Source: Jaenimonas drosophilae
Taxonomy: Eukaryota; Euglenozoa; Kinetoplastea; Trypanosomatida; Trypanosomatidae
Assembly: GCA_030849065.1 (NCBI GenBank)
Contig: JASAON010001584.1
Coordinates: 1-64,000, forward strand
DNA: 64,000 bases
Direction of reading: 5' to 3'
This document shows positions 23,411-62,166 of the stretch, piece after piece (positions within the stretch are counted from its first letter, which is position 1; each line of letters starts with the position of its first letter). The notes beneath the pieces were generated by a model. It saw only the letters and a list, made by a program, of their open reading frames with translations, made no database searches and had not been told where the DNA came from. A program made the translations under genes and the position numbers.

Positions 23411-23539
23411 GAGTATTCTCTGGAACAAAGTGTGCCCATCATAAAGGTTCATTGAGTGCAAATTCGTTTGTCTTGTGTGTCATGAGGTGTGATGGAGACC
23501 ACCCACAACGTGACATGGTATGACCTCCACGATGCTCTG

Positions 23540-23574
23540 TTATTCTCACTCTTTTGTTGTTTGTTGCATTGTAG
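23540..23574 (+). promoter_or_regulatory. Inferred spliced-leader acceptor that sets the start of the SENP gene
   Basis: A TTTTGTTG-rich tract ends in GTAG with AG at 23573-23574. It lies inside the open frame that begins at ATG 23520, so the expected start is ATG 23601. Confidence 0.55.
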
Positions 23575-23600
23575 TCAGCTCAGGATCTGCTGCTGTACGC

Positions 23601-35302: not shown

Positions 35303-36302
35303 AACAGATCAGATTTGCTTCACACGTCCTTTTCATCATCGTCACTGCACCTTCTACATCCCCACCTCTCGCTTATGCGTGGAGGTGGAGCTCCGTGACG
35401 CGGGTTGTGGTGGTAACTGCATCCTTCCTGCTCTCCGTTCCATCCAATGTCGTGGATGATGGTTCAAGGTGGTGATGATCATGATGATGAGAGGCGGTGG
35501 GTTTTTTCGCAGACAACCACAACAGAATGGATTTTGGGCATCATCTCTTTTTTTCTTTTTCGTTTCTCTGTGTTGTGTGCGCGACATTTAGCAGATCAAC
35601 GATCTGCGCGGGCTCCGTACACGGATTTCCTAGCTTCGAGATGCCTCTTCACTGGCCCTTTGCTGCTCCTCTTTGCTTTCGCGTTGTCTTTGATCATGTG
35701 TGCCTCTGCCAACGCACGTAGACCCCATTCTTTCACGGAATGGATGGTGATGATGGAGCACACCCATGTCGGGTGGGCTCCTGTCGCTGCACATACTTAC
35801 GCACGCATATTCTTGTTCTTTTTTTCCCCCGTTAATGGAATGAAGTCGGCCGCGTTGCTAGTGCTCGGATGCTGCCATTCTGCATGACGAAAAATTATTA
35901 TCCTTTCTCTGCCTTCTCCTCAGCCTCGATGGTGGCTGAAAACGCTGTGGAGAGCGGAGGATGGATCTTCAGAAACTACACAAACGTATTCTGCCAACGC
36001 ATCAACCACCCTGAGTACGAGACGCTTTCTTGCGTAGTGATGCCCATCTTCATACATCCCTTCTCTTCTATAGGTACCTTAGCCCGTACTCATCCATACT
36101 ATCTTCACCAGAACTGTTGAGGCATACGTGTATGCCATCCAACACCAGCGGCACATCTTTGCTTCACAACCCCAGACACGTGTGGGTGCGTGCGTAGTTT
36201 GGTGAGTTGCATGCAGTACCTCTGCCATTCACGCACACGAAGTTACAATCATCACTGCCTTAGCATTGGGCTATCTCTTCCTTGCCCACCACATAAACAC
36301 CA
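35303..36302 (+). other. Long spacer before the pseudokinase gene
   Basis: 1,000 bases without an accepted gene. A strong T/C tract (35546-35591) ends in ATTTAG with AG at 35590-35591 and is followed at once by a small perfect inverted repeat. A hydrophobic frame after it (35640-35887) lacks a suitable ATG. AG 36262-36263 is a nearer acceptor for the next gene. Confidence 0.45.
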
Positions 36303-44938: not shown

Positions 44939-45640
44939 ATGACTGACTTAGCGGCGTGCGGGGACGACGTGGTGGCGGAGGTTGAGGTCATCCGCGCACC
45001 ATCGTATCCTCGCAGTCCAAAAGTAGTACGATCTCCCACTCCCGCATCAAAAGAGGAGGCACAGTGGGCCATTAGCCTCCGTGGAGCTCGACGGACGCGA
45101 TTGCCGGAGCCAACGGCACGTGTGAGTAGGCAATGGACGCGCCGTCCTCCTCGCCCGCAAATTGGCATGCCGGATGATTGTTCCGAGAATGGCCTTCCCA
45201 TTCCGCAGACGCGTGCGGAGATGAGCATGGATTGCCCGTACTGGACCATCACCTACGTTCGTGAACATGAAAAGGGCCGGTTTGTGGGCCAATCCCGGCC
45301 AACGGCAACTTGGGTCTGTGAGCTGATGGACGTGGTTTTCTCCAAGGCAAAGCCACCAGCTGTGGTAGAGAAGGAGAGGGCCAGCGTACGTCGTAAGAAG
45401 GGAGCTGCCCCACCTCCTCGTTCGGCCATGGAAATCATCACGGATGCCTTGGAGAACGATGCCCGACAGGCTGGTCTACGTCCGCTGCAGGTACTTTTCT
45501 ACAGCAATGCCGAGTACATTTACACCGAGCTCACCCCACTCGCGGTGGATTGCCGCCATCTGTCTTCCTTTTTTCTCGTCCCATGTGTTGTTCCAGATGG
45601 GCATGTGCTCGTTGACGCACATACCAGCGAGACAGCTTAA
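44939..45640 (+). CDS. Single-copy YWT/DADF-domain protein, paralogue of the next gene
   Basis: 233 residues. Family not recognised. The N-terminal part (AISLRGARRTRLPEPTARVS) aligns with the N-terminus of the next gene (AISLRSAKQLTLPKPVARVS), so the two are tandem paralogues. Residues ~98-220 are one YWT/DADF domain: an opening strand CPYWTITYV, a variable basic loop, helix AMEIITDALENDARQAGL, strand LQVLFYSNAEYIYTELTP, and closing strand LSSFFLVPCVV. Here the usual DADF reads NAEY. No membrane segment or catalytic motif is visible. I infer a protein-interaction module. Confidence 0.75.
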   Translation: MTDLAACGDDVVAEVEVIRAPSYPRSPKVVRSPTPASKEEAQWAISLRGARRTRLPEPTARVSRQWTRRPPRPQIGMPDDCSENGLPIPQTRAEMSMDCPYWTITYVREHEKGRFVGQSRPTATWVCELMDVVFSKAKPPAVVEKERASVRRKKGAAPPPRSAMEIITDALENDARQAGLRPLQVLFYSNAEYIYTELTPLAVDCRHLSSFFLVPCVVPDGHVLVDAHTSETA

Positions 45641-46258
45641 CTTGTTGCGGTTCATGTTGGGGAACCTTCTCGTGGCTTCACCTCATCCTCACCACTTTTG
45701 AGGAGTCATCTGCTCCGAGCCTCGTCCACAAGCCCCGCGGCGAATGTATTCTACGGTCTGTGTGGGGCCACGGACTCTCTCCCGTGTGTACGAAACTATC
45801 ATACCCCCCCTCAACCCTCTCCCCATACTCCTCCCAAATATTCGTGGATACTTCACTCACAAATATTTCTCATCAAGAATATGAACCTGGACCTGGTAGA
45901 TGCACATGACCATCACCGTACCACAACCTTCACCTCCTTTTTCTTGATTGCTGTCTTCGTACCTTAGTTCACTAGCTTTTCTTCTCTTTTTGTTTGGGTG
46001 CACTCGGTCGCTCTCCTCACACTCTTCACGGACCTGTGATCCCGTCCCACTGACTGGGGATATCAGCTACTTCACATATAGCCACCCACACGTACGTATA
46101 CCCCGACACAACAACGACCCTTGTTGTTTGTGCCTGCCAAGGTGTTGTTGTCGCTCGAAGCTCCACACAATCCTTCCGCAGCCCGTCCACACGGTTGTTG
46201 GGGCCACACTCACTTGTTTCTTTGCTCGTCAACGCATCATCGCTCGGCAGCAGGAACC
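45641..46258 (+). other. Spacer between two paralogues
   Basis: 618 bases, no gene seen. CT tracts occur near 45929-45966 and 45974-46020; the acceptor for the next gene is at 46249-46250. Confidence 0.5.
46211..46250 (+). promoter_or_regulatory. Inferred spliced-leader acceptor that sets the start of the three-copy YWT/DADF gene
   Basis: CTTGTTTCTTTGCTC is followed by CGGCAG with AG at 46249-46250, 8 bases before ATG 46259. The open frame reaches back to a TTG at 46121, which this acceptor excludes. Confidence 0.5.
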
Positions 46259-49200
46259 ATGACGGACGGCACCACGGATCAAATCACTCTATCCAATGCC
46301 CACCGACGTGGTCTCCACGTCCGCCGCCCTCCGCCACCGCCCACCCCTGAGAAAGAGGATGATACCAAGTATATTGCCATCTCCCTCCGCTCCGCCAAGC
46401 AGCTAACTCTACCAAAGCCCGTTGCTCGTGTCAGTAGCACCTGGAGCAGGTCTGTTCTCCGCTCCACCCAGGGCAATCGCAACATCTCCAAGGTCACCAC
46501 CCATGACTACCCACTCCCCCTTAGTGCCGATGAGCTGTCGGGAGAGTGCGGATACTGGACGGTCTTCTACACACGTGGTACGGGGAAGCAGCTTGGGCAG
46601 TCCAAGATGGATGCCCCACCCTTGGACTCCGCCCACATTGTCTCAGGACGTGGCCTTCGTGAGCGTGTTCACGACGCTCCATCTCACGGCTATGAGGTCG
46701 TGATGTCAGCGCTCCGCACGGATGCCGAGCGATATGGTCTCGTTGTGTCCCGTGTCCTCTACCTCGACCGCATTCACCGCATATACGCCCCACTGACTCC
46801 AGCAGCGATGCTCTGCAACACGTTGAGCTCCTATTTCGTGGTCTTTGTAGAGGTATTTGGTTCTGATGGCAAGTCGAACCAGCTGCTGTCCGGTCTTCGC
46901 AGCAAGAACCAATCCCCAAGTAGAAACCAAGCACTCGTTCCTGTGACGAAACCGGAGGAGGCAGCCCTTATTCCGATTGATCAGACCGCGTACACGGAAA
47001 CCTACCAGACTGAATCAAAGAGCCCACGTGCGAATGTGGCGGCAGACGTGGCCAGCACTCCCGTGGAGGCTGCAGCGGCAACCGAGTTGCCCTCGGCAGA
47101 GGAGGAAGCTGCAGCACAGGCCCTTGATGAGACAACGGTTCACGACTTCAACTCGGCAACGCTGGATACACAGGCGGATCCAGTCCTTGGCCTTCCCGCC
47201 GCAGAGGTTGATGTCGTGGAGGAAGGGTCTCAATCCGATTCCTCTCAGGAGCAGGACGGTTCGGAAGAAACCGAACCCACCCACGCTTCTTCGGTCTTCA
47301 GCACGGGTGGCTTGTCTGGTATTGCCCAGCAGGGCTGCTACGCCCTGACGCAACGGGTTCGCATGCGCCAGGCCGCACGCGAACCTCAACCCACGTTGTT
47401 CGACGTACCGGAAGACGTGAAGCTGTCCTACCGTGGTCACTGGCACCTCATCTACGCCACCCACGCCGGTAAGCCTGCTGGAAGTTCCCTCGTTCTCTCT
47501 CCGGGTGCGACGCACAGCGCTGGGCTCAGCCCTCGGCTGAAGCGTCTCATCCCCCATCCCACCTTCCGCGAGATTTGCCGCACCATTGAGGATGATGCCA
47601 TGTCTCGTGGCTTCTACATGTGCCACCTCATGTTCAGGGATGCCGATTTCAACCAGTTCTGCATTCTCACACCACAAACCGTCCATCACTGTGTCAGTTG
47701 GACCTTCTTGGTCATTGTCAGCGACACCTCCACCTGCTCTGGACCCTGCTCCATCGAGCTCAACAAGATCAGTGAGGCGGTTCTGGATGCTTCCGCTGCT
47801 TCAGCAGCCTCCCCACTCACAGAGAAGAGGCCCATCACCGCCATCAACGCAGACTCCGTGCACAGTCTTGTCGAAGGCGATGCCCAGGGCGAATCACCAC
47901 GTAGAAACAGTGAGGCCAAGGATATGGATGAAGATGAAGAAGCCGACGTACCAGAGCGGACGAACACAGCTCCACTCCGTCCAGAATCTGAGAGAGATTC
48001 CAAGCAGTCTCAGGGAGAAGATGGTGATGAACACCCCATCAATTCTATGCAGATCGCGGAGGAGGACAAGGCAGCCGGCGGAGATGCAACTCGCCCCGAC
48101 GGCGAGGAGGAAGCTGCTGGTGCTGACGACATAACAGAAGAAGATGGCGTGGTCACCAAGACATCGCAACCAACGACTGCAGCTGGAGACCGTGCCACGG
48201 ATGTCGTTGTAACAGAGCTGGACATGGACGTGGATGTGGATCAAACTGGTTGCTACGCCCTCTCCGGCAAGCCCAAGCCACGCCGCGGACATGAGGGGTC
48301 CTGCGTGCATGCAGCAGATGGTGTCTTCCCGATGGAAGACGCAAGTGTGGCCAAGGGCTTCTCCTACCGTGGTCAGTGGAAGCTCATCTTTGTCACCCAC
48401 TCCGGTAAGTTTGCGGGGTGCGCGAACGTGTCTTCACCCGCCCTGCGCCGCCACGAGCGTGAGGGTGGATTGCCTGTGTACCCTACGCAGCCAATTCCTC
48501 GCCCAACCTACGACGAAGTGGTCGAGGTTGTCGATGAGGCCGTGGACGAACGCAATCTCTTTCTCTACCACGTCCTCTATTGGGACGCCGACTTCCGCCA
48601 CTTCTCCACTCTTTCTGAGTCCTCCATCACCCACTGCGTCTCATGGAAGTTCCTGGTGATTGTTGGAACCGAAAAGCCATCTGTATTCCTTGGTTCTCGC
48701 GGTGTGCAGATGCAGTCAGGCGTCGAGGGCGACCTCCAGGGTGGAGAAGAGGAGGATGGTGCCGCTACGCAAAGCTTCACCCTCTCCGATGAACTCTTGG
48801 CTGAGATCGCGGCTCATCTCCAAACATTTGCCGCCCCGCCCGAGATCGACATCCGCAAGATCGAGTATATCCCCATCAAGTGGAGGCGTCCAGAGCGAAA
48901 GGCGTCGGATGAATCCTCCCCCACGGCAGGCGGGGAGGAGACGGGGCCCCACGGAAGCCGCAAGGCCACACCACCCTCTGGTACTGCCCCCAACAGCAGG
49001 GACGGACGCCATCGAATCTCAGATAGGTCGGCCGCGTTGGCTGCGGACGACGCCGCCACCGCGGAAGATGCCCCCAGAAGTGGCCACTTAGTTCCCCGAA
49101 AGCCCACAGACGCTGCGCATGACTCCGAGTTGAATTCTCGTCCTGGCTCCGGTGTTGGCCCACAGGGACGCAGCGGTGCTGCGTCTGGCCGTGGACGCCT

Positions 49201-51007
49201 CTCCGATGAAGCACATGGCTCGGCTCCCATGGAGGGAGCGGATGGCTCTCAGCAGTCAGGTGCTCATGGTGGAGCAGCTGCAATGGGCAAGGGCGACGAA
49301 CACAACAACGACGATTCCATCAACTCCCCACGAGAGCGTGGACATGCTGCTTCCGGAAGCGAAGGCGATGAGGAGGTAGATACGGCCGGCACTCTCACCC
49401 CTAGAAAGTCTGGCGCAGTGGGGAAGAGCGGCTCCCGGGGTGGTCGCCCACCCGCTATTCCCGGCACAGGTGCCGATGGCCACATCACCGACGGCTCCGT
49501 CACCTCCCCACTGGAGCGTCGTCCCTCCCGGGCAGGTGGGTCCCAGTCTCCTTCCGATGAGGAGGCGGACACTGCGGCAACCATGACCCCTCCACGCGGC
49601 TTGAAGAACTCCGAAGGCGGTGACGGTCGTGGTCCAATGAAGGAAAATGACCACATTGCCGTAGATCAGCTCCCGTCCCCAAAGTATCGTGCCTGTGAGT
49701 CAGAAAGCATGTCGGAGGAGTCTCGTGCAGGAACAGGCGCAGGTCGTCCCACTACCCAAGGCCGCAGCGTCACTGCCAGTGGCCTCCCGATCCCTCAGCC
49801 AAGATCCGCAGCCGGCGGTCGTGGAGCGGCTGGCTCTCCAGATGCGGAGCGATTGGGAGAGAAGGGGCAGCCTATTTCCCTCGATCACCTCCCTCCACCG
49901 AAGCACCGTGCTTGCGAATCCGAGAGCCCATCGGAAGACTCTCGCCTGGGTACGGGCGCAGGCCCGCGAGGGGTGACTGCGTCGATGAGCCCTGCCCAAG
50001 AAGAGGCCGCCCGTGCCGGAGATGGACACATTCCGCAAGGTGGACCCAATGATGCTGCTCGTGGTCTTGGCGACGAAGGGGATGCTCGAGACGGACGCCT
50101 TGGGGGACAACCAATCTCACTGGATGGCCTCCCTCCGGCCCAATACCGTGCCTGCGAGTCAGAAAGCCCCTCGGAAGACTCCCGTATGGGCACTGGAGCA
50201 GGTCGTCCCGCGACACATGGCCGTATCGTCACTGCCAGTGGGCACCCTATTCCGCAGCCAAAGTCCGCAGGTGGCCCTGAGGCAGGTGTTGCAGGCCGGC
50301 AGCCCATGAAGCATGAGCGTCTTCCTGGTGAGCCCATCTCCCTGGATCAGCTCCCACCACCTAAGCATCGCGCCTGCGAGTCAGAGAGCCCCTCGGAAGA
50401 CTCCCGACTAGGTACGGGTGCAGGACCGTATGGACGCGGTGTAGGCGGTGCAAATCGTGCTGCCCCCGTCATGCCGCTCTCTGAGTTTGACACCCAAGAT
50501 GGAGACAGCAATCCCTACGGCATCACGGGTCCACGTCCCATGAGTGCGCGGACAGACGGAAGTGGCTCAGAGCTGGGCAATCTCTCGTCAAGCGAGCACA
50601 TTCCTGGTGACTGCACACCGCTTGCCTTCAAGAAAGAACACCCCAGCGTGCCGCCAACGGATAAGACCAAGCCAACTACCGTAGTGCCACAAGGCCGTCC
50701 GCCCATTAGCCCCCGCCGCCCAATAAGCGGACGATCCGCAGATGAAGATTCCGCTCGACGAGACGATGTTCTCTCAAAGATTAAGGTGTTGTCCTACACC
50801 GAGAGCGGAACACCAGATCCGACGCAGAGCTCACTTCCTGACTCCCGGAAAGCCGGCCTGCCGAGCCTCTCCAGCCGTTTTCCGGCAGTCAACCCCCGGT
50901 TGGAGCCTTCCACACCTCCTCGTGTTGCTTTGAACTCCGCCAACGAGGGCAGCAAAGAAGAGCTACCATCCCTCAGCGCATCTTCACATGGATCATGTAT
51001 TCGTTGA
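46259..51007 (+). CDS. Three-copy YWT/DADF-domain protein with C-terminal ESES repeats
   Basis: 1,582 residues. Three YWT/DADF domains lie at ~98-205 (CGYWTVFYTRG, Trp100; VLYLDRIHRIYAPLTP), ~393-500 (GHWHLIYATHAG, Trp395; LMFRDADFNQFCILTP) and ~705-815 (GQWKLIFVTHSG, Trp707; VLYWDADFRHFSTLSE). Copies 2 and 3 are closest and share a preceding GCYAL motif. Linkers are acidic. From ~860 on the chain is disordered, Gly/Ser/Pro/Asp-rich, with four copies of a P-I-S-L-D-x-L-PPxxxRACESES-type repeat ending GTGAG. No membrane segment or enzyme motif is seen. I infer an elongated scaffold; many SP sites suggest regulation by phosphorylation. Confidence 0.82.
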   Translation: MTDGTTDQITLSNAHRRGLHVRRPPPPPTPEKEDDTKYIAISLRSAKQLTLPKPVARVSSTWSRSVLRSTQGNRNISKVTTHDYPLPLSADELSGECGYWTVFYTRGTGKQLGQSKMDAPPLDSAHIVSGRGLRERVHDAPSHGYEVVMSALRTDAERYGLVVSRVLYLDRIHRIYAPLTPAAMLCNTLSSYFVVFVEVFGSDGKSNQLLSGLRSKNQSPSRNQALVPVTKPEEAALIPIDQTAYTETYQTESKSPRANVAADVASTPVEAAAATELPSAEEEAAAQALDETTVHDFNSATLDTQADPVLGLPAAEVDVVEEGSQSDSSQEQDGSEETEPTHASSVFSTGGLSGIAQQGCYALTQRVRMRQAAREPQPTLFDVPEDVKLSYRGHWHLIYATHAGKPAGSSLVLSPGATHSAGLSPRLKRLIPHPTFREICRTIEDDAMSRGFYMCHLMFRDADFNQFCILTPQTVHHCVSWTFLVIVSDTSTCSGPCSIELNKISEAVLDASAASAASPLTEKRPITAINADSVHSLVEGDAQGESPRRNSEAKDMDEDEEADVPERTNTAPLRPESERDSKQSQGEDGDEHPINSMQIAEEDKAAGGDATRPDGEEEAAGADDITEEDGVVTKTSQPTTAAGDRATDVVVTELDMDVDVDQTGCYALSGKPKPRRGHEGSCVHAADGVFPMEDASVAKGFSYRGQWKLIFVTHSGKFAGCANVSSPALRRHEREGGLPVYPTQPIPRPTYDEVVEVVDEAVDERNLFLYHVLYWDADFRHFSTLSESSITHCVSWKFLVIVGTEKPSVFLGSRGVQMQSGVEGDLQGGEEEDGAATQSFTLSDELLAEIAAHLQTFAAPPEIDIRKIEYIPIKWRRPERKASDESSPTAGGEETGPHGSRKATPPSGTAPNSRDGRHRISDRSAALAADDAATAEDAPRSGHLVPRKPTDAAHDSELNSRPGSGVGPQGRSGAASGRGRLSDEAHGSAPMEGADGSQQSGAHGGAAAMGKGDEHNNDDSINSPRERGHAASGSEGDEEVDTAGTLTPRKSGAVGKSGSRGGRPPAIPGTGADGHITDGSVTSPLERRPSRAGGSQSPSDEEADTAATMTPPRGLKNSEGGDGRGPMKENDHIAVDQLPSPKYRACESESMSEESRAGTGAGRPTTQGRSVTASGLPIPQPRSAAGGRGAAGSPDAERLGEKGQPISLDHLPPPKHRACESESPSEDSRLGTGAGPRGVTASMSPAQEEAARAGDGHIPQGGPNDAARGLGDEGDARDGRLGGQPISLDGLPPAQYRACESESPSEDSRMGTGAGRPATHGRIVTASGHPIPQPKSAGGPEAGVAGRQPMKHERLPGEPISLDQLPPPKHRACESESPSEDSRLGTGAGPYGRGVGGANRAAPVMPLSEFDTQDGDSNPYGITGPRPMSARTDGSGSELGNLSSSEHIPGDCTPLAFKKEHPSVPPTDKTKPTTVVPQGRPPISPRRPISGRSADEDSARRDDVLSKIKVLSYTESGTPDPTQSSLPDSRKAGLPSLSSRFPAVNPRLEPSTPPRVALNSANEGSKEELPSLSASSHGSCIR
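49665..50430 (+). repeat. Four coding repeats with RACESES core
   Basis: The RACESES core recurs at about residues 1145, 1218, 1298 and 1372 of the host protein, spaced 73-80 residues apart. Copies 1 and 3 are followed by a VTASGxPIPQP segment and copies 2 and 4 are not, so the unit is a duplicated pair. Confidence 0.8.
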
Positions 51008-51467
51008 GGCCAGCTGACTGGATATACATCTTCGCCTCCGCGTTTGGTGTGCATCCAGAGGGTGTGCAACACTGGGTGGCTTCGATTTTGTTTTTTTTGG
51101 TTCGCCCATGACTGAGAAACCTGAGTATATGGAGCTCATCTTTGTGTCCTGTCTCGTTGTGCATGGGGCCCTATGCAAGGTGTGAGGCCGCATGAGTGGT
51201 ATACCCGACGCTTGTGGAATCATTAGGCTCGGTTGTTGGTACTCTCTTGACGATAGCTTTGCGACATTGTGCTCCACAAGGATGTATCTAGCACTAGGAA
51301 GGTCAAGGTTTCACTTGTACTTCACTATCCTCCTTCCCCATTCACCCGTAGAGCGAGGAGCACGTCAGGGTGAACATCCGTTCGATTCGGCTGGTTCAAG
51401 CCTTCTCCCTATGTAGTAACCTCCGACGATGGATGGAACCCTTTTGTATGTGGTTTGTGTGGTTTGT

Positions 51468-51495
51468 GTGGTTTTTTTTTCATTTTTTCTTTCAG
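51468..51495 (+). promoter_or_regulatory. Strong spliced-leader acceptor before a candidate small ORF
   Basis: A run of Ts interrupted by single C/A bases ends in TTTCAG with AG at 51494-51495. The next ATG is at 51501. Confidence 0.5.
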
Positions 51496-51500
51496 CATTC

Positions 51501-51782
51501 ATGTGTATTGGCGTTCATGAACTTACGGAACGGGCGCGCCTTCTACACAGGAAGTATGAACAGGTGCGGTGGCGTGCGGTAATTACGGGAAGGACAATGT
51601 GGCTCCAAGCACGCGTATTGGGGGAGGGGTCAACCTTCCTCTTCTATTTCTCGCGTATACACCCCTCTCAAATCCTTAACCCTCAATGTACTCATGTTCA
51701 TGAAGGGGGGTGGCTCCATTTCACACATTCCCTCGACTTCCCTATCGCAACCACCTCATTGTTCAGTCACACAAGAGTCTGA
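51501..51782 (+). CDS. Candidate small protein, 93 codons
   Basis: The ATG lies 5 bases after a strong splice acceptor. The first ~45 residues look helical and charged (HELTERARLLHRKYEQVRWR), while the second half is less protein-like. Codon use is less GC3-biased than in the firm genes, and there is no known family. It may be a real lineage-specific small gene or an upstream ORF of the next transcript. Confidence 0.28.
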   Translation: MCIGVHELTERARLLHRKYEQVRWRAVITGRTMWLQARVLGEGSTFLFYFSRIHPSQILNPQCTHVHEGGWLHFTHSLDFPIATTSLFSHTRV

Positions 51783-52543
51783 GTTCATTCGTTTGCTTCC
51801 ACCCTTCCGTCTGGCCATTCAGCAGCGCACATTGTCTGAGCTGCCCCTCCCCTCCTCGTCGCTACCATTTCACTACAAACCATATATATTGCGATTCTGT
51901 CGTAGAGAGTGAGGAGGCATCATCACCCTTTTTTTTCTTCGGTTGAACATTTGGATAACATAAACAAGAATGAGTTTTGTTTCCGTGTCTTTTCCGTACA
52001 CCTGACCTCCGTCTCGCTGCCGCCACCAGGAGGTGCCAGCTTGTTCATTCCACGACATAATATGAAGGCGATGCAATGTATGGTGCTGGCTCCCCCACCG
52101 CAACAAATGACCCTTGACACTGCTTCTCTCTTACTCATGAGGTCCACTCCAAAGTCCCAACTTCGACATTTTGCTTCCCCTGTTGCTCTATCTTCAAGGT
52201 TTATTTCTGTTGTGGTTTTGCTTGAAGCTCACCGTCCCTGACCCTCTTGCTATCGCGGACCAACACCTGCTACGAATTTGGGCCCTACGAACTAGATCCT
52301 GCTCGCCATTCGCGTCGTCGCTCGTTCTCTCGTGTTCTAACCATCTCTTTGACGCGCAACAAGCCTCACTAGTAGGTTGTGTGTGCTGGGGTCATTTAGT
52401 TGTTTTTGGCTACTCGTGTACTTCAGATTGGCAGGATATAACCCCCGTTGTTTGCTGACGTCCAATTCAATCAAACACGTCAACACACTCCACCAAAAAA
52501 AAGAAAATAACAACTACGCCAGCAGCACATCTGACGAACTTCG

Positions 52544-52587
52544 TGGTTGTTTTCCCGCTTTCCGTACCCCTTTCCCACATCTATCAG
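52544..52587 (+). promoter_or_regulatory. Inferred spliced-leader acceptor
   Basis: A CT-rich tract ends in CTATCAG with AG at 52586-52587, 20 bases before ATG 52608. Confidence 0.55.
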
Positions 52588-52607
52588 CCAACTGCTGACT
52601 TCAACGG

Positions 52608-55600
52608 ATGTTCTTCAATACAGATGCCGCGAATGCCTTCTATCTGAAGCGCGACGCAATCGCCAACAGCGTCGGTGACTACCCTCGTGAGGATAGTGCG
52701 CGGTCAGGCACGACACCGTCGCGGCCTGCATCGAGAAGCAGTCGGCCGCCGTCGAGCGGACAGCGACCCTCTCCGCCCCCACCCCTTGCTCCTCCCCCGC
52801 CCAACTCCACTCACCATTGGGGAAGCTGGGAGACCTCAGCCTTTCCGCCACGCAGGGGGGTGAGCCCACCAAGCAGCGCTAATCCGCGCCTCGGCCAGCG
52901 TGGGAACAACGCTGCCGATGCCACTGGCGCTGGTGTCGAACCGGCAGGGATGATTGCCTACTACAGTGAGCCAACGCCAACACCCCCGCCTCGGTCGGCG
53001 CCAGGGGCCACCCACAACCGCCTGCGGCCCGCGAGCGCGCCGGGGGGTCCTGCTGGAACCCCCACTGCCCCAGCCACGGCCAACAGTCCGCAACGGCACG
53101 GTCAGGCGTCGTCGGCGAACACGACCCTCATTGACGGCCGAGCGGCAACCTCACGCGGACAGGGTGAGCGCAACACTCGCCCCGCCTCAGAAGGTATTTT
53201 GACCGACGAACACACCTCCCCCACCTTGGACGAGAACATTGGTCAGTGGGTCGAGAGAATGCGACGAATGGTGGAGGACCAGCGCCACGCTGGCACCCCG
53301 AGTAGCCGTCGGTCGTCCAACCCTTCGCCTGTCCCAGCAGCAGATATTCCGCGCAGAAGCCAATCTATTCCTAATGGATCAGAAGGTGAGATGCGCTACG
53401 CAACTGGACGCCCACGCAGCCCCCTCTACGCTCACTACAGCGATGAGGACGATGCCCACAACGGCACGAATGCCAAGGAGGAACACTGGGTCGTGGAGGT
53501 TGTTGCAACCACTGTTCTACCGGATCGCACCTGGGGTCCCGACCTGGCGGCAGAGCTCGTCACAGAGGAAGACCTCATTCACCTTCGTCAGGTAGAGCTC
53601 ACGGTGCCACGCAACCTGTTGCAGCCATCGGTTTCTCTCGACGAGAACTACGACGCCGTCGTTCGCTTTCTCACCGACGCTACGCAGCAGTTCCCCGACT
53701 ATATCCCAAGCGTCTTTTATTACTACGACGAGGACTTCCAGAGCTACGCCCAGCTCTCACCAGATGCCCTACCGCAGGCCGGAAATGCCTTCCGCGTGAT
53801 GATGGTGCCGGTCTGCCCTGAGCTGCCCCCACGAGAGTTGCTTGTTGCTGCTGCCCCACCCTCCTACAACGGTGCCCAACCTCAACACCCGCCACGTCGG
53901 CCATCAACCGGCACGGCGTACGCGCCTCCTCCACCACTACCAACGCGCGACGCTGACATATTCTTTGACGACCCCACCGATGCATTGCCACCCCATCGCC
54001 CACCCACACCCCACAGCACACAAGATGCTGAGTCGCATCCCTACTACCACCTAAGGGCCAACACCCCCCCTCCACCCGCTGCACCCCAGACTCCTGCCGA
54101 GAAACCTGTCGAGGACTCGGCCCACCCAATCACCACATTTGCCGCGGATATTCCCGGAGACGACTGGGGCCTCCTCATTCAGCAGATGCAGCCATCCATC
54201 AGGCAGCTATTTATGTTGGACGCCGCCTGCCTACTCCACTGCCCTGCCCACTACATTACCAATATTAGGATGAATTCACACCATCTTCATCTGGCCTTTG
54301 ATCTCCAACACCACCCCAGCGACGATCCCATTGCTATTCAACGCAGTCTCAACAACTGCACCTTCCCATCCCTTCAACGCCTCTACGCACAGCGCCACAC
54401 CATTCTTCCGCTCCCTGAGGGAATGTACGCCACAACTCAAGCTTCCCAGAACCAACCGCCGCTCCAAGAGGCAATCGACGCTCATGATGATGTGCAAGCA
54501 TCTACTCCAATAGAAGAACCTGCCGCACAGCTTCCTCCCGTGGAAGAGGAGCCCGTTGTGGAGCCAACTCCCATGGAAGACGAGCCCATTGTGGAGCAGA
54601 CTCCCGTGGAGGAGGAGCCCATTGTGGAGCCGACTCCCGTGGAAGAGGAGCCCGTTGTGGAGCCGACTCCCGTGGAAGAGGAGCCCATTGTGGAGCCAAC
54701 TCCCGTGGAAGAGGAGCCCATTGTGGAGCCAACTCCCGTGGAAGAGGAGCCCGCTGTGGAGCCGACTCCCGTGGAAGAAGAACCCATTGTGGAGCCAACT
54801 CCCGTGGAAGAGGAGCCCGCTGTGGAGCCGACTCCCGTTGAAGAGGAGCCCATTGTGGAGCCAACTCCGGTGGAAGAAGAACCCATTGTGGAGCCAACTC
54901 CTATGGAAGAAACCGCTGCTGAAGAAGCTGCTGTTGAGGAGCCTACTCCCGCCGAGGAAACCGCTGCTGAGGAAGCTGCTGTTGAGGAGCCCACTCCCGC
55001 CGAGGAAACCGCTGCTGAAGAAGCTGCTGTTGAGGAGCCCACTCCCGCTGAGGAAGCTGCTGGTGAGGAACATACGGAGCAGGTAGAGTCTCAAAAGAGC
55101 GATGTTGGAAATAATGATGTGGAGCTGGTGGCAGAGGAAGGCGAGAGTTCCAAATTGGGTACGTCTTCAAGGGAGGTGGGAGAGGGAGATTTGCAGGAGT
55201 TGTCTGCGGAGGAGCACAATGCCGCGCCTTCTTCGCCAAAGGAGGATGTGCGGGAGCTGTCTGCTGAAGATGAGATGGTTGCCGATGATGGTGGTGAAGA
55301 TACGGCTCCGTTTGAGGAACGCGGCCGGGAGGACGGTCTTTCAGTAGATCGAGATGAGACAGGAGCTGAGAGTGCGAATGCGCGGGATGTTGGTGGTGAA
55401 GCCTCTCTTAACGTTAGATCCTGCACGGAAGAAGGTATAGAAGACCGTGATAACTCTGAAGCAGGCGCTGGTGATGAGGAAGAGGCTGTGGAGTATATTC
55501 GTTCGTGCGAGAAGCTGGGCTATGTGGGCCGCTACTGGTCTCACATGCTGGAGCATGATGAAGCCACATTGATGGAGATCTTCCGTCGTGATGCTGAACT

Positions 55601-55832
55601 GGCCATTGCCGACTTCCCCAACGTGTCGTTGGAAAACATCTCCATGAAGGTTGGAAGCTTGATGGTTGATTTCTTTGTACTTCACCCTTCCACAGTTGCG
55701 TATGAACAGATTCACGAACGTCTGGTGAGCCACCAGTTCGAGGAGCTGTGGGGCTACTATGACTCGTGCAAGAAGGCTGCAAAGGCTCAGAAGAAGGCAA
55801 AGCGAGCCGAGGACACAGACAGTCCTTTGTAG
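52608..55832 (+). CDS. YWT/DADF plus twin FAZ1-type domain scaffold with coding minisatellites
   Basis: 1,074 residues. Order: a Pro/Ser-rich disordered head (1-285) with poly-Pro runs; a divergent YWT/DADF domain at ~290-405 (EEHWVVEVV, Trp294; VFYYYDEDFQSYAQLSP, then AFRVMMVPV); a Pro-rich linker; FAZ1-type domain 1 at ~512-605 (IPGDDW, Trp520; ends FPSLQRLYAQR); an acidic linker made of two tandem repeat families; a further acidic stretch; and FAZ1-type domain 2 at ~968-1060 (VGRYW, Trp977; ends FEELWGYY). The C-terminus is a Lys-rich helix. Its domain order matches the next gene, so the pair is probably paralogous. I infer a long flexible linker protein of the flagellar or cortical cytoskeleton. 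Confidence 0.82.
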   Translation: MFFNTDAANAFYLKRDAIANSVGDYPREDSARSGTTPSRPASRSSRPPSSGQRPSPPPPLAPPPPNSTHHWGSWETSAFPPRRGVSPPSSANPRLGQRGNNAADATGAGVEPAGMIAYYSEPTPTPPPRSAPGATHNRLRPASAPGGPAGTPTAPATANSPQRHGQASSANTTLIDGRAATSRGQGERNTRPASEGILTDEHTSPTLDENIGQWVERMRRMVEDQRHAGTPSSRRSSNPSPVPAADIPRRSQSIPNGSEGEMRYATGRPRSPLYAHYSDEDDAHNGTNAKEEHWVVEVVATTVLPDRTWGPDLAAELVTEEDLIHLRQVELTVPRNLLQPSVSLDENYDAVVRFLTDATQQFPDYIPSVFYYYDEDFQSYAQLSPDALPQAGNAFRVMMVPVCPELPPRELLVAAAPPSYNGAQPQHPPRRPSTGTAYAPPPPLPTRDADIFFDDPTDALPPHRPPTPHSTQDAESHPYYHLRANTPPPPAAPQTPAEKPVEDSAHPITTFAADIPGDDWGLLIQQMQPSIRQLFMLDAACLLHCPAHYITNIRMNSHHLHLAFDLQHHPSDDPIAIQRSLNNCTFPSLQRLYAQRHTILPLPEGMYATTQASQNQPPLQEAIDAHDDVQASTPIEEPAAQLPPVEEEPVVEPTPMEDEPIVEQTPVEEEPIVEPTPVEEEPVVEPTPVEEEPIVEPTPVEEEPIVEPTPVEEEPAVEPTPVEEEPIVEPTPVEEEPAVEPTPVEEEPIVEPTPVEEEPIVEPTPMEETAAEEAAVEEPTPAEETAAEEAAVEEPTPAEETAAEEAAVEEPTPAEEAAGEEHTEQVESQKSDVGNNDVELVAEEGESSKLGTSSREVGEGDLQELSAEEHNAAPSSPKEDVRELSAEDEMVADDGGEDTAPFEERGREDGLSVDRDETGAESANARDVGGEASLNVRSCTEEGIEDRDNSEAGAGDEEEAVEYIRSCEKLGYVGRYWSHMLEHDEATLMEIFRRDAELAIADFPNVSLENISMKVGSLMVDFFVLHPSTVAYEQIHERLVSHQFEELWGYYDSCKKAAKAQKKAKRAEDTDSPL
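54541..54905 (+). repeat. 33-bp coding minisatellite, about 11 units
   Basis: Each unit encodes 11 residues of the type PTPVEEEPIVE. Units differ by few bases, mostly silent or I/V/A exchanges, implying recent expansion or homogenisation. Confidence 0.9.
54906..55062 (+). repeat. 48-bp coding minisatellite, about 3 units
   Basis: Each unit encodes 16 residues of the type EETAAEEAAVEEPTPA. It directly follows the 33-bp array in the same frame and keeps its strong acidity. Confidence 0.9.
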
Positions 55833-56448
55833 TCAAAATGGTGTTGGGTCCCTGCGTGCACACGTACGTGAAGGGTCAACGTGGTTGGCGGTACGTAGAA
55901 CTGCCCGTAGTCTCGTGAGACTACTGACTTGCAGTGGAGATGCTGGTCGTCTTCGTGCAACAAAACAAAAAAAACACAAATTTTCTAGAATTTTGATGAT
56001 GCGGGCCCCGATGTGCACTGCCATCCCACGCAAGAACCACCTTCGTTATACCCTCCCCACTTCAATCCTCCACCTAGTCTGTGGAAAGATAAGAACAGTT
56101 GGAGGTGAGGTGTGCTCTTGCACATACCGAGTCGTGGATTTATTGGTTTCAAGAGTAACCCCGAAAGCCCCACCATTGTCGTGGGCATTAGTACGATTGA
56201 TGAGCAACATTCTCTCCCCAATCACTTCATCCACTGAGGATGGTATACGATGTGCGTGGATTGGTCTTCATGTGATGAGTGCCATGTACTCTTCTCTCAA
56301 TCTCTTCTCTTGTCTGTCAAAGAAGTCTGCTTCGCGTCTAGTCTGTGCTGGTACACAGGCTACGCTTGAAGTACGTCCGCGGTCACCCCTTCCGCCATCT
56401 ACCGGCACCTTTGTTATTCTATAAGTTGTGAGTTAGGTGGTGGATGGA
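55833..56448 (+). other. Spacer between the two scaffold genes
   Basis: 616 bases, no accepted gene. A-rich sequence lies near 55961-55979. The likely acceptor is AG 56424-56425 or 56435-56436. Confidence 0.5.
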
Positions 56449-59400
56449 ATGCTCGGGCACAACAACAAGGATAACAGAGGGCATCTAGCCTCACCACAGC
56501 GAAGTTGTGCGCTACCTGCGATTGCAAAGCCGCTTCCCTTTCCTCCACCGCTTGGTGATGATGGCAGTAGCTCCAGCTCTAACTCCACCCCACGTGGTAG
56601 ACCAGAATTCATGAAACCCCTCACTACACTCCGCGAGAGAAACCGTCTAGCTCAATCATCTCCAGCACGTGAAGGGAGAGCTTCGGCCTTGTTCAATACT
56701 GGTGAGGCGGCCTACCATCAACCTTCTACCGCAAGTATACTGCAGCCTGAAACGGCACGTGTGGTGCTTCACCACCGCCATCAGCCACGTCCACCGGGCC
56801 TGTACCGCTCGCCAAGCTGTACAGAAGAAAATATGCCTGGCTCCTCCCTCGGTTACTGGACAGTTGCCTACTGCACTCATGGTGGTCGAGAGGTGGCCTC
56901 CGTGAAGCTTCACCCCGCTCTCCTGCGCATCCCGAACAGTGAGCGGTCCGCTGCGGGCCGAGGCCAAGTATGCAACGCTCGTGGAGGCTTTTCGTGCCAG
57001 CAGATTCTTGATGAGATTAGCTACGATGCATCACGTAGGGATCTTCAACTCAGCCATGTTCTCTACCTCGACGGAGACTTCAAAACGTACAATCTCCTCA
57101 CTCCGAAAACTGCACAGTTTGCCACAACTGGACGATTTAGGGCCGTTGTTATCACTGCAGCAGAGCGACTACAGGCGCAGCTTGAGCTGAATCAGAAAAC
57201 CCAACGCATGCAGGAGCTCACCTCCTCCGCCCAAGCGTTGCGGTGTTCAGATCAGGGTAGTGAGGAGGCACTGCTTCGTCGAGATATCGACGTTGCGATG
57301 AGACTACTAGATGGAGAGTTTGAGCATACGGATGCTACACTGCAACGGATGCATCCACCCAGCCCCCCGCCTTCTGTTTCTACTCCCCCGCCCGTTGCAA
57401 CTCCGCCACCTCGGCAGCCTTATGTGATTCCGATGAACATTCGTCGTCGCATTGAGAAGCTGTTGCAGAAGAATGTGGAGGAGATTCACGACCTAGAGAG
57501 GGAGGAGCAGCTCGAGCGGGATATGTTTGATCAGTCCTCAGAGGTGAGCCACATTCTACTCCACTACCTCATTGACTGCCACCTCAACGACATGGACCGG
57601 GCGCATCTGTCGCGTTGGCTGGAGAAGGAGTACAATTGCTGCAGCGATATACATATGGGGGAGATGAACGCCCTACGCAAGCAGGTGCGCGCGGCACTGG
57701 AGGAGGAGGAGATCCGCGATGAAGAGCGCCGGTTGGAGCGCTTCTTGACGGCACCTCCGCGAACAACTTCCGCCGAACCTGCCGATGATGTCTACGACAT
57801 GGAAGAGGACGAAGAAGACGATGTGTATGAAGAGGAACAGAGTGGGGCTTCTTCCACCGCACACTCTGCTGCTGAGCCAGAGGCCACAACGGCGGCCGGT
57901 GAAGTGGAACCGCTCAACCCAACCGAGATGCACAAGGCTGCCCCATCTGAGGACGAGCCGACGCCACGTATCGAAGCCGTGGAGGATGATGTTGAACCAG
58001 AGCGGACCGATATGTTGGGAGAACAGGTAGACGCAAATGGTTCCCAAGAATTGGCGATCGTAGACTCGATGAAGAGCCCGGAAAAGCAGGATTCATCGTC
58101 CAATCCTCCGTGCCCCAACGAGGGAGTCGAAGCTGCCGTGATCGAGAGTGTGCAGCAGCAAGCTGAGACAGCGGCGAAGCCGGAGGACTCACCTCACAGC
58201 AACATATCCTCATCTGCACTACCCGAAGAAGCAGATTCACCAGAGGCAGAACCCGAGGCATCTGCTTCTCTCCCAGCAGCTGAAGAAGCTGTACCTGAAT
58301 CAGCTCCTCCTCCCTATGAAGCCGGTCCCGCAGAGGCGGAGGCAACAACACCATCCGTCAATGATGTATTGCCTGCTTCAGCCTGTGAGAACGCAAGTCC
58401 GCCACAACTGGAGGCATCGCTTCCTACGACGGAGAAGGTTGCTCAGGAATCTTCATCACCAGCGCTGCTACGTGAGGCAAGTCAAGGAGAAGTAGTAGAG
58501 GCAGTGAAGACGCCCTCATCTGAATCTGCTGTGGAGGCAGAGGCAGAAGCCGCAGCCGAACACTTTAGTCCCTCGGAAGAGAAGCCAACAACACCTCCAC
58601 GACAGTTCGTGGCTTCACAAGAGGCATCCAAGTCATCACTGGTGCATAGCTCGTCCCAGCCTAACTCTCTACCAAAGACCCCGTCTTCAAGTTTGGTGGA
58701 TGTTGGTACCAAGGACGTCCAATCTTCTACCTCTCTCCATGAAACCAGTCCGGCAGAGGTGAGACCCACATCTCCGCTCAGCCAATCCACAATTGAGGAA
58801 AAGGAAGTGCCAGAAGCGTCCACTCTGGCCGATGAGGCTAGTTCGCGCCAACCACAGCCTGAGGCTTCACTGCCTTCAGAGAAGGAAGTGACACCTCAGG
58901 ATTCAACGTTGTTGTCTCAGCCACTCCAACCGAACGTCGCGGCAAAACCATCTTGTGAAACTTCTCCAGTGGAAGAATCAAGGGATGGTTTACCTTCGTC
59001 CGACATGGACGCGGACCGAAGCGAGAAGGAAGCTGCGTCGGAGTTGGCTTCTGCCCGTGATTTCCCTGAGAAGGAGGAGATCTCGTGGAGGTCGTCGTCT
59101 GTACCGATGCCACTCTCTCCTCCGCCATCGGAGGAGCGCGCGGAGGACTCGTTAGCATCAGCGGAGGAATCAAACGAGACAGTCGATGAGATGGAGGAGG
59201 AGCCGGAAGACAATGAGCCTCCTCAGCGTGCGCGTGCTCCATCGCCGGATGTCCTAGTGCTGACTGACCCAGATGAGGAGTTGGAGGAGGACATAGGCAA
59301 CAGGCATGATGTAGTAGGTCGTGCCGACGGTGACGGTACAGCGGAATTTGATGAACCCTCTGAAGAAGAATTCGAAGAAGAAGTCGAAGAAGAAGATGTG

Positions 59401-62166
59401 GAGGAGATCGAGGGAGAGGAGGTGGAGAACTTTGAACAGGAATCGACGATTGAGCGGTACGTTTACGATGGCAGCGCATCCTCCTCTGATGAGGATGCAC
59501 CAGCCGACCGTGACCATACGCTGGAGCCTCCTCGAGCGACGGCAACTCCGATTGCTGCGGTACTGAGTGAGTTCTCCGAGCCCGCCTCCCCCGCCGAGGG
59601 TGAAACGGAAGAGGAGATGGAGAAGGAGGAGGAGGTTGAGGAGGCCATGGCATCGTCAGGCTCTGAGGACGAAGAAGGAAGCCCCTCGGCGTCGGAAGGG
59701 AGCAGGAACTCCACCGAGCCGGACATCGTTGCTGTGGTGAGCGACAGCCGCATGACGCGAGCGTCGAAGAGCTCACTTTCGGAGGATGCAGGTGCAGCCA
59801 ACCCTCCCGCCACCACGGAAGACCCCGATTCTCCTCAACCCTCGTCGGAGGACTTCTACGAGGTGTTCAAGCGCAATCGTGCTACACCGAGTGAGCGTGA
59901 AGGCGTACGCAGCCACTACGAGGACTACATCTCTCAGATGATGGCACACCCTTCTCCTGGAAGTAGTAGCCCATCCCGCGATCAAGCAAGCGCAGCCGAG
60001 CCAACGAGTCCGAGCGACCAGGCTGAGGCACTTCAGCTGCTGCCTGCCTACCTGGACGATCATCTCCCCATCGATGAGGAGGTTATGAAGATCCTCTGTG
60101 AGTCTGAACAGATCGTCTGCACCCACCACCGTAAGCCACTCCCTGGGACGGAGTGGGAGATGGTGTTGCGCCACAGCACGCTCTTCTTCAAGAAGGAGTT
60201 CCTGGACGACTTCTCTGACGTGATGGAGTGCGACCCTCACTGCGTACGCAACATTGTCCTTCACGGAGAGGATGGGGTGGTGGACTTTGACTACTTCCAC
60301 GACGTGCGCCGAGGCCCGGAGACCATTGACCTCATCATTGAGGAGTTCTTCTTTCCACGTCTCATGGCCCTCTACGAGTGCAGAAACTTCCTCAAGGAAC
60401 TGGGGCCAGACATCTGCCCTGAAGGCGAGGAAGAGCGGTCACAGGAGAGAACGACGACGGTACCCACGGAAGAGGAGCTGGATGCGATTGAGAACAACCG
60501 CGAAGACAAGATTGAGGGGGCCATGTACGCCGAGAGCGTGAAGGCTTCTATGCTGGATGCAGGAGAACCTAGTAGCGAACAACACGCAGCTCCAGCCCCA
60601 CCAACGGCAGCAGATGACCTAACAGACGAGCAATTAGATGCCATTGAACATAATCACGACGGCAAGATTGAGGGTGCGATGTATGCTGAAAGTGTGAAGG
60701 CTTCTATGCTGGACGCAGGGGAGCCTAGTGCCGAACAACAAGCTCCTCCCCCTTCGGCGCAGACTGATGATACCCCAGACAATCAACTCGATACCATTGA
60801 ACATAATCACGACGGCAAGGTTGATGGTTTTGTGTGCAATGAAAGTGAGAACGCTCCTATGTTCGACGCAGGAGAACCTAGTAGCGAACAACAAGCAGCT
60901 CCAGCCCCGCCAACGGCAGAAAATGACCTGACAGACGAGCAAGTAGATGCCATTGAGCAGAATCGCGACGACAGGATGGAGGGTGCAACGCATGCTGATA
61001 GTGTGAAGGCTTCTATGGTACATGCTGGAGAACCTAGTGCCGAGCAACAAGGAGCACCACCACCACAACCGGCAGATGTACTCGACCAAGACGAACCAGA
61101 CGCAACCGGGGGTCCAGATTCCGCTCGCCAGGAGGTTTTCGCAGAGACGGACGCGGTGGAGGGAACACTGCCCACCTCCACTGCCGAGGCAGTGGACCCC
61201 ACCGCCTCAACGACGGCCTCGGTTGTCGCCCTCACCGAGACCGACGACTCCCCAAACCGTGGGAAGGTCTCCATCCGGGAAAATCGCACCGAGAGTCTCG
61301 CCAACTCCGTTTACAGCGACACTCAGACCACCACTGACCTCCAAGAGACTACTGAGTCGGAGGTACTCCACTCCGTCGAGGTGATGGAGCATGGCCGTCG
61401 CTCTGTGCGGCAGCTGCTTCAAAGCGCAGCTACCCTTCGGTATCCTGATCATAGCTATGGGGTGCCGCTGTACGAATGGGAGACAGGCCTCCCAGGAAGC
61501 AGTGCCTCTGACATGCAAAGCCGTACCGACACCACTGCCACCTACCATAGTCGCAGCCGCAGCTCTCACCGGGGAGCTGACTACCACGTTCATCGTCTGT
61601 GGATGGACCTCACCGCGGATGATCGTGGCTTCGCACTGGAGGCGCTCGCGCAGCGGTGGAAAGATACTCGGCCGCTCACCATCGCCCACGGCGTTGTTCA
61701 CTTAACGGGAGAGGAGTGGTCCAAGATTCTGGAGTGTTGCCCGCTCTTCTTGCGGGATCAGTTTGTAAGTGAGGTCTGTGGGGTGCTTCACCTCGACCCG
61801 GCCTACATCCGCAACGTGGCGCTCTGCTCCACTGCCCATCACCTTCAAGTCCACTTTGACATGGTGGTGGAGAACAGCCCGGCAGTGAAGACGGCGAGCC
61901 TCCTCGCGCTGCAGCAACACGCCTATGACCTGCTTCAGGAGCTCTACGCTGTGCGAGCGCAGATGCAAGATCTGCACCTTGAGGCTGCTCTTGTTGCTCA
62001 GGGGGATCTTCCTCTACTAGCCTTTGAACACGGGGGATGCCCCACCGACACGGAATCATCTGTGAGCCCACCTTCATCATCCCGGCGACTGCCGAGCAAA
62101 CCACTCTCGGCCAGGCCGGAGGGCTCCAGTCGCCGTGTACGTCAAGCAAAGGTGGAGATCAACTAG
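56449..62166 (+). CDS. Giant YWT/DADF plus twin FAZ1-type domain scaffold
   Basis: 1,905 residues. Two GTG codons precede ATG 56449 in frame but are not starts. Order: a YWT/DADF domain at ~135-240 (LGYWTVAYCTHGG, Trp137; VLYLDGDFKTYNLLTP; FRAVVITA); a coiled-coil segment (~330-370) with dense Glu/Arg; a very long Glu/Ser/Pro-rich disordered region (~440-1190) with runs such as EEEFEEEVEEEDVEE; FAZ1-type domain 1 at ~1228-1318 (LPGTEW, Trp1236; FPRLMALYE); four ~51-residue repeats; a linker; FAZ1-type domain 2 at ~1750-1845 (LTGEEW, Trp1757; LLQELYAVR); and a basic tail. Architecture matches the preceding gene. It is likely a long spacer or tether in the cytoskeleton. Confidence 0.83.
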   Translation: MLGHNNKDNRGHLASPQRSCALPAIAKPLPFPPPLGDDGSSSSSNSTPRGRPEFMKPLTTLRERNRLAQSSPAREGRASALFNTGEAAYHQPSTASILQPETARVVLHHRHQPRPPGLYRSPSCTEENMPGSSLGYWTVAYCTHGGREVASVKLHPALLRIPNSERSAAGRGQVCNARGGFSCQQILDEISYDASRRDLQLSHVLYLDGDFKTYNLLTPKTAQFATTGRFRAVVITAAERLQAQLELNQKTQRMQELTSSAQALRCSDQGSEEALLRRDIDVAMRLLDGEFEHTDATLQRMHPPSPPPSVSTPPPVATPPPRQPYVIPMNIRRRIEKLLQKNVEEIHDLEREEQLERDMFDQSSEVSHILLHYLIDCHLNDMDRAHLSRWLEKEYNCCSDIHMGEMNALRKQVRAALEEEEIRDEERRLERFLTAPPRTTSAEPADDVYDMEEDEEDDVYEEEQSGASSTAHSAAEPEATTAAGEVEPLNPTEMHKAAPSEDEPTPRIEAVEDDVEPERTDMLGEQVDANGSQELAIVDSMKSPEKQDSSSNPPCPNEGVEAAVIESVQQQAETAAKPEDSPHSNISSSALPEEADSPEAEPEASASLPAAEEAVPESAPPPYEAGPAEAEATTPSVNDVLPASACENASPPQLEASLPTTEKVAQESSSPALLREASQGEVVEAVKTPSSESAVEAEAEAAAEHFSPSEEKPTTPPRQFVASQEASKSSLVHSSSQPNSLPKTPSSSLVDVGTKDVQSSTSLHETSPAEVRPTSPLSQSTIEEKEVPEASTLADEASSRQPQPEASLPSEKEVTPQDSTLLSQPLQPNVAAKPSCETSPVEESRDGLPSSDMDADRSEKEAASELASARDFPEKEEISWRSSSVPMPLSPPPSEERAEDSLASAEESNETVDEMEEEPEDNEPPQRARAPSPDVLVLTDPDEELEEDIGNRHDVVGRADGDGTAEFDEPSEEEFEEEVEEEDVEEIEGEEVENFEQESTIERYVYDGSASSSDEDAPADRDHTLEPPRATATPIAAVLSEFSEPASPAEGETEEEMEKEEEVEEAMASSGSEDEEGSPSASEGSRNSTEPDIVAVVSDSRMTRASKSSLSEDAGAANPPATTEDPDSPQPSSEDFYEVFKRNRATPSEREGVRSHYEDYISQMMAHPSPGSSSPSRDQASAAEPTSPSDQAEALQLLPAYLDDHLPIDEEVMKILCESEQIVCTHHRKPLPGTEWEMVLRHSTLFFKKEFLDDFSDVMECDPHCVRNIVLHGEDGVVDFDYFHDVRRGPETIDLIIEEFFFPRLMALYECRNFLKELGPDICPEGEEERSQERTTTVPTEEELDAIENNREDKIEGAMYAESVKASMLDAGEPSSEQHAAPAPPTAADDLTDEQLDAIEHNHDGKIEGAMYAESVKASMLDAGEPSAEQQAPPPSAQTDDTPDNQLDTIEHNHDGKVDGFVCNESENAPMFDAGEPSSEQQAAPAPPTAENDLTDEQVDAIEQNRDDRMEGATHADSVKASMVHAGEPSAEQQGAPPPQPADVLDQDEPDATGGPDSARQEVFAETDAVEGTLPTSTAEAVDPTASTTASVVALTETDDSPNRGKVSIRENRTESLANSVYSDTQTTTDLQETTESEVLHSVEVMEHGRRSVRQLLQSAATLRYPDHSYGVPLYEWETGLPGSSASDMQSRTDTTATYHSRSRSSHRGADYHVHRLWMDLTADDRGFALEALAQRWKDTRPLTIAHGVVHLTGEEWSKILECCPLFLRDQFVSEVCGVLHLDPAYIRNVALCSTAHHLQVHFDMVVENSPAVKTASLLALQQHAYDLLQELYAVRAQMQDLHLEAALVAQGDLPLLAFEHGGCPTDTESSVSPPSSSRRLPSKPLSARPEGSSRRVRQAKVEIN
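60466..61089 (+). repeat. Four coding repeats of about 51-52 residues
   Basis: Units start at about 60466, 60622, 60775 and 60931. Each has a DAIExNxDxKxEG core, then an AESVKASMLDAGEPSxEQ-type segment and a Pro/Ala-rich end. The third unit is the most diverged. Confidence 0.85.

Follow-up and report, generated by a model that had tools for sequence, protein, structure and literature searches.

Results

Organization of the locus

The window analyzed in this study is a stretch of 64,000 nucleotides from the trypanosomatid Jaenimonas drosophilae (contig JASAON010001584.1, positions 1-64,000, assembly GCA_030849065.1). Between positions 44939 and 62166, it carries four consecutive genes on the plus strand, here called A, B, C, and D, whose open reading frames are all intact, with zero internal stops, and whose proteins share six copies of a domain of about 100 residues that we refer to as YWT, after its opening strand. 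A seventh copy was found elsewhere in the same genome. The copies are named after their genes, and their coordinates are given below together with those of the other features of each gene.

Gene A (44939-45640, plus strand) starts with an ATG and encodes a protein of 233 amino acids with an N-terminal region and one YWT domain (copy A, 45233-45604, plus strand), in which strand 2 and the helix are separated by a long insert and the DxDF motif that we describe later is lacking. Gene B (46259-51007, plus strand; 1582 amino acids) contains three YWT domains in its N-terminal half, all on the plus strand: B1 (46547-46870), which lacks DxDF and whose structure was modelled; B2 (47429-47728), with THAGK and DADF; and B3 (48365-48673), with THSGK and DADF, which shares 40% identity with B2. 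These domains are followed by a repetitive low-complexity tail, where a stretch around RACESES occurs four times within 49688-50390 (at 49688, 49907, 50147, and 50369).

The two remaining genes combine the YWT domain with FAZ1_cons (PF23398), a domain of the protein FAZ1. Gene C (52608-55832, plus strand; 1074 amino acids) encodes, in this order, YWT copy C (53478-53825; DEDF, the most divergent copy, structure also modelled), a FAZ1_cons domain (54132-54395; 58.9 bits), acidic repeats, and a second FAZ1_cons domain (55503-55766; 50 bits); its tandem repeats have a unit of 33 bp at 54535-54910 and of 48 bp at 54909-55070. Gene D (56449-62166, plus strand; 1905 amino acids) encodes YWT copy D (56848-57165; THGGR and DGDF), a long acidic linker, a FAZ1_cons domain (60112-60378; 55.7 bits), 3.7 copies of a 156-bp repeat (60501-61076), and a second FAZ1_cons domain (61690-61950; 41 bits). 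All these features lie on the plus strand, and in both genes the repeats separate the paired FAZ1_cons domains.

The seventh copy, E, occupies residues 153-259 of a 918-amino-acid protein encoded on the minus strand of contig C167 (locus L032, 3475-6231). In the second half of this protein, a stretch around GEEDVPS occurs five times (residues 654-856), and the frame adjoining its gene is one that we take to be a mitochondrial-type RNA polymerase.

The YWT copies form one family

The six segments of the window, with lengths of 100-124 residues, were cut by their flanking words, and the relationships among them were searched with single sequences, without a profile, against the whole 18.8-Mb genome. 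With B3 as the query, B2 was found at E = 4.1e-20; with D, the search returned B2 (2.5e-5), B1 (9.3e-5), and B3 (0.0023); with B1, it returned A (4.7e-6). The complete protein of gene A matched B1 plus the stretch upstream of it at E = 3.6e-18, and copy C alone retrieved no other copy. The seventh copy was recognized at E = 3.3e-9 with B3 and at 2.6e-6 with D. The first-pass annotation of this DNA, made from the sequence alone, had described the domain as occurring six times in four consecutive genes; those six copies stand, and the count for the genome as a whole rises to seven or more, spread over five genes.

A profile built from the cut segments, as that annotation had proposed, was then evaluated by leaving each copy out in turn. 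A hidden Markov model made from six copies was compared with the seventh, with 2000 shuffles of each copy, and with the 962 stop-to-stop frames of at least 40 amino acids in the window. The held-out copies scored 33.6 (A), 62.9 (B1), 73.3 (B2), 63.4 (B3), 18.9 (C), 53.2 (D), and 70.1 bits (E), and for none of the seven did any of the 2000 shuffles reach the real score, the top shuffle per copy lying between 5.7 and 9.7 bits. The weakest member is copy C, whose score was obtained with the cut segment; within its full frame, the alignment to the profile is confined to positions 48-89 (domain E = 0.0038). The structural model, which places strand 2 behind a long loop, offers a reason, namely that the first half of C is probably aligned out of register. 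Taken together, these searches indicate that the YWT/DADF segment is a genuine domain family, unnamed in the libraries that we searched.

The six frames of the window yielded no further copy by profile, the best non-copy frame having E = 0.038, and no additional copy was found by profile in 52 loci (211,076 bases, many of them overlapping); the whole-genome searches were made with single sequences only, without the A segment alone or the first half of C. A candidate eighth copy on contig C349 (E = 0.045) was rejected because its frame of 208 amino acids overlaps another of 575 and its profile score is 7.4 bits.

Some elements of the family are conserved in every copy and others are not. All seven have a tryptophan in strand 1 and the pattern [YF]xxL[TS][PE]; DxDF is present in five of the seven, being missing from A and B1. 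The motif THxGK, said in the first-pass annotation to occur in most copies, is less common than stated: THxG[KR] was found in three of the six copies of the window, and thus in three of the seven overall. The closest pairs by identity are B2 and B3 (40%, as noted above), B2 and E (35%), and A and B1 (34%). In a tree of the copies, only the grouping of A with B1 is fairly supported (92/97), copy C has a very long branch, and we claim no history from it. Genes A and B look like tandem duplicates, given that the stretch preceding the YWT domain, ISLRxAxxxxLPxPxARVSxxWxR, is common to both (alignment A4).

Searches against known families

The first-pass annotation knew of no named family with this signature, and our searches agree. 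In Pfam, listed at E ≤ 10 by a procedure that drops most matches above about 0.1, no credible match was obtained for the seven copies; Peptidase_S66 is listed for one of them, at E = 0.18. The prokaryote library NCBIfam gave zero matches at E ≤ 1, and the profile found nothing better than E = 0.39 among the PDB sequences. In a large protein collection whose kinetoplastid content was unchecked, no match was found at E ≤ 0.01 for residues 1-830 of protein P0002 (7979 candidates sharing the most words were scored) or for residues 130-242 of protein P0004 (67 candidates), nor at E ≤ 1 for alignment A4 (7631 candidates). A scan of viral contigs with copy D showed no relative. As regards the literature, none of the titles and abstract openings that we found describes this domain.

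Predicted fold

AlphaFold2 models were made of two of the seven copies, B1 and C, with predicted local distance difference test (pLDDT) values of 73 and 64, respectively. Their input was an alignment of six rows, all of them YWT copies, and the models therefore do not count as independent of each other. The B1 model has strands at residues 3-9 and 15-22, a helix at 46-61, strands at 65-74 and 79-82, a short helix at 85-88, and a last strand at 96-103. The strand order is the same in C, where strand 2 is displaced by the long loop. Both models thus have five strands in the order of PB1 and ubiquitin, with a helix between strands 2 and 3, that is, a beta-grasp arrangement, and the turn at the DxDF position connects strands 65-74 and 79-82 in B1 and strands 75-82 and 90-92 in C.

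The nearest structures to the B1 model, with modest scores, are the N-terminal domains of BILBO2 and BILBO1 and PB1 domains, and those nearest to the C model, also with modest scores, are PB1 domains. With Foldseek, the B1 model matches the BILBO2/FPC4 structure best, and PB1 structures are at the top of the VIA list for both models; the VIA rows listed for B1 do not include BILBO2 (7a1i), and those listed for C include neither of the BILBO structures. According to these models, the YWT domain is predicted to fold as ubiquitin, in the PB1 or BILBO1-N-terminal type of beta-grasp. They support the ubiquitin-like or PB1-type fold guessed in the first-pass annotation: the two modelled copies share one fold, and no described family matches the seven. 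Absent from that account were the seventh copy, the FAZ1_cons domains of genes C and D, and the parallel with the N-terminal domains of BILBO1 and BILBO2. As read from the translations, processing aside, none of the copies shows the Gly-Gly C-terminus of conjugated ubiquitin-like modifiers, and further sequence follows all seven domains; the shortest protein, that of gene A, ends in HTSETA.

FAZ1_cons domains in the YWT proteins and in the window

Genes C and D carry two FAZ1_cons domains each, all over the Pfam cut-off, and a Pfam scan found none in genes A and B or in the gene on contig C167, so that two of the five YWT proteins carry this domain. The window has 14 FAZ1_cons matches at E ≤ 0.01, of which 13 are over the cut-off, and the genome has at least 116, of which 112 are over it. 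Eight of the 13 lie in frame 2-2494, which is probably cut, since it runs from the very start of the contig. Another match (9230-9496; 74.7 bits) lies in a short open frame, of 207 amino acids, and one at 4858-5103 is below the threshold. Together with those of genes C and D, these matches make the window a cluster of FAZ1_cons-bearing sequences.

That YWT might itself be a divergent FAZ1_cons was considered and rejected: the Pfam FAZ1_cons profile matches none of the seven copies and its matches in genes C and D are placed elsewhere. In a comparison of profiles with hhalign, which we evaluated here and below against 150 column-permuted controls, YWT and FAZ1_cons gave P = 0.16, and 22 of the controls scored as high.

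In Trypanosoma brucei, the PFAMB506 domain is reported for nine proteins, and a published table assigns it to FAZ1, FAZ4, FAZ6, FAZ8, and FAZ10 (PMC4827413). We infer that PFAMB506 equals FAZ1_cons. GB4, PFC20, FLAM8, and Tb927.10.870 are described as cytoskeleton-associated in another study of T. brucei (PMC4406125). The FAZ1_cons pairs of genes C and D point to putative scaffolds of flagellum attachment or of the flagellar pocket, and, given the presence of this domain in two of the five YWT proteins, YWT probably serves the cell skeleton as a docking part.

The window includes other coding regions: an Ulp1-family protease (Peptidase_C48, E = 4.8e-16) at 23520-26534, and, at 31370-41594, two large frames with long low-complexity regions and with stretches that read as kinase-like in the translations.

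Discussion

A candidate docking module

The explanation that we favor, by a small margin over even chances, is that YWT is an unnamed beta-grasp family of the PB1 or BILBO1-N-terminal type and that it is a small module for docking, carried by large cytoskeletal scaffolds of mostly low-complexity sequence. Seven copies form the family, and two of its five proteins contain FAZ1_cons; the docking to peptides and the cellular location are what we would expect from this context. In such a mechanism, the surface beside strands 3 and 4 would hold a short linear segment of the binding partner, as the N-terminal domains of BILBO1 and BILBO2 do, and the remainder of the protein, with its FAZ1_cons domains, repeats, and acidic linkers, would be the anchor at the flagellum attachment zone (FAZ) or in the region of the flagellar pocket. 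The protein of gene B, with three YWT copies, could act as a multivalent linker, and those of genes A, C, D, and E (the latter being the gene on contig C167) would contribute one copy each.

A bolder extension, which we regard as possible but rather doubtful, is that YWT represents a third, lineage-specific class of kinetoplastid docking domains with the ubiquitin fold, beside BILBO1_N and PB1, and that one to three YWT domains per protein would read short motifs of their partners, string FAZ-type scaffolds together, and couple the attachment zone to the pocket collar. A recurrent folded module in proteins of this kind is a useful handle, as it offers a profile for searching other kinetoplastids, a target for structure determination, and a candidate docking surface.

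The other explanations are about equally unlikely. One is that YWT is a beta-grasp domain in the generic sense only, with another role, for example as a binding domain for a small GTPase, tubulin, or some other partner away from the attachment zone. The structure matches that would support it rank below the best PB1 rows of the VIA list, and both the gene neighborhood and two of the proteins indicate FAZ-type scaffolds.

Comparison with known systems

PB1 domains, as in p62, Par6, and Cdc24, resemble YWT in strand order and topology and in the acidic turn that links strands 3 and 4, present as DxDF in five of the seven copies. YWT could accordingly be a true, very divergent PB1 that polymerizes head-to-tail or pairs with another PB1, acidic turn to basic patch, so that the scaffolds would owe it their length, and the leading place of PB1 structures in the VIA lists of both models, together with the location of the turn at the strand 3-4 position of OPCA, speaks for it. 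Nevertheless, we consider it improbable on account of the sequence comparisons. The PB1 profile of Pfam (PF00564) matches none of the seven copies at E ≤ 10, whereas six PB1 segments, used as a control, each reach E = 4.4e-13 or lower with it. The profile of these six segments compared with that of YWT gave P = 0.17, with 9 of 150 controls as high, in a test that is weak at this distance because even BILBO1_N and PB1 give only P = 0.052. A search of the genome for the PB1 family returned no match and was uninformative, as the controls were likewise unmatched. The acidic core of the type I OPCA motif, which we rendered as [DE]x[DE][GNE][DE], is absent from all seven copies, and only two have an acidic residue among the 12 places after LTP. 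Type II PB1 domains have a conserved lysine in strand 1, and among the YWT copies only B3 has one. The first-pass annotation had placed the DxDF turn at the site of the OPCA motif, and the position matches in both models, yet the acidic core does not; judging from the models, the equivalence is positional only.

Within kinetoplastids, WDR2, a hook-complex protein of T. brucei, is described as having a PB1 motif, assigned by homology modelling, together with WD40 and a coiled coil (PMC12239596). By this description, it resembles the YWT proteins, as interpreted here, in embedding a beta-grasp module in the longer chain of a cytoskeletal protein, and differs in its other domains and in the origin of its PB1 assignment. 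FAZ1_cons occurs together with YWT in proteins C and D and differs in being a separate domain by profile comparison.

The nearest kinetoplastid parallel of YWT, judging from the predicted fold, is found in the N-terminal domains of BILBO1 and BILBO2 (6sjq, 2mek, 7a1i; BILBO1_N, PF18281). That of T. brucei BILBO1 is reported to fold like ubiquitin, to carry an aromatic patch, and to resemble the PB1 of Par6 in fold without sequence homology (PMC5683654), and BILBO2 is reported to have the same fold, both proteins binding FPC4, with W71/W70 among the key residues (PMC8360560). YWT might then be a distant member of BILBO1_N that binds a peptide of the FPC4 kind, making its carriers additional proteins of the flagellar pocket collar. 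Besides the Foldseek match of B1 to BILBO2/FPC4, this is favored by the profile alignment, which lands on strand 3, the turn, and strand 4 of YWT and, in a register that is not significant, places Y or F at the position of W71 and L at that of L74 in all seven copies. In this same non-significant register, however, the place of Y64 is aromatic in only three of the seven (A, B3, and C), which weighs against family membership and, slightly, also against the docking role that we prefer; the pocket residues Y87 and F89 of T. brucei BILBO1 lie outside the alignment. Membership seems no more probable than that in PB1, since the Pfam profile matches none of the seven copies at E ≤ 10, the profile comparison gave P = 0.19 (18 of 150 controls reaching the score, the test being weak at this distance), the five places found with this profile in the genome, three of them over the cut-off, include no YWT copy, and the domain opens T. 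brucei BILBO1, but the first YWT copy starts at residues 97 to 291 of the five proteins.

The genome has a BILBO1 gene with EF hands (contig C148) and a BILBO2-like gene (C310). Two more BILBO1_N-like proteins were observed at loci L041 (C354) and L042 (C353), one over the Pfam cut-off and one below it in the genome search; they possibly represent a wider BILBO family in this organism. BILBO1, FAZ1_cons, and the gene content also mark the DNA as kinetoplastid, and a 19-base spliced-leader pattern looked for in the assembly had no match.

Since there is no significant profile link, the acidic PB1 core is found in none of the seven copies, and the strand-1 lysine in one, we file YWT, on sequence grounds, under neither PB1 nor BILBO1_N, and propose that it may work like a docking module of either type. 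Beyond the missing sequence link and the scarce aromatics at the Y64 place, it differs from the BILBO domains in sitting within longer proteins, in up to three copies per protein, and in having a long variable loop between strand 2 and the helix in the B1 model. These comparisons define YWT as a new family within a known kind of module, the ubiquitin-fold interaction domains, and suggest that the docking of BILBO1 and BILBO2 to FPC4 is possibly one case of a broader use of this fold in the kinetoplastid cytoskeleton.
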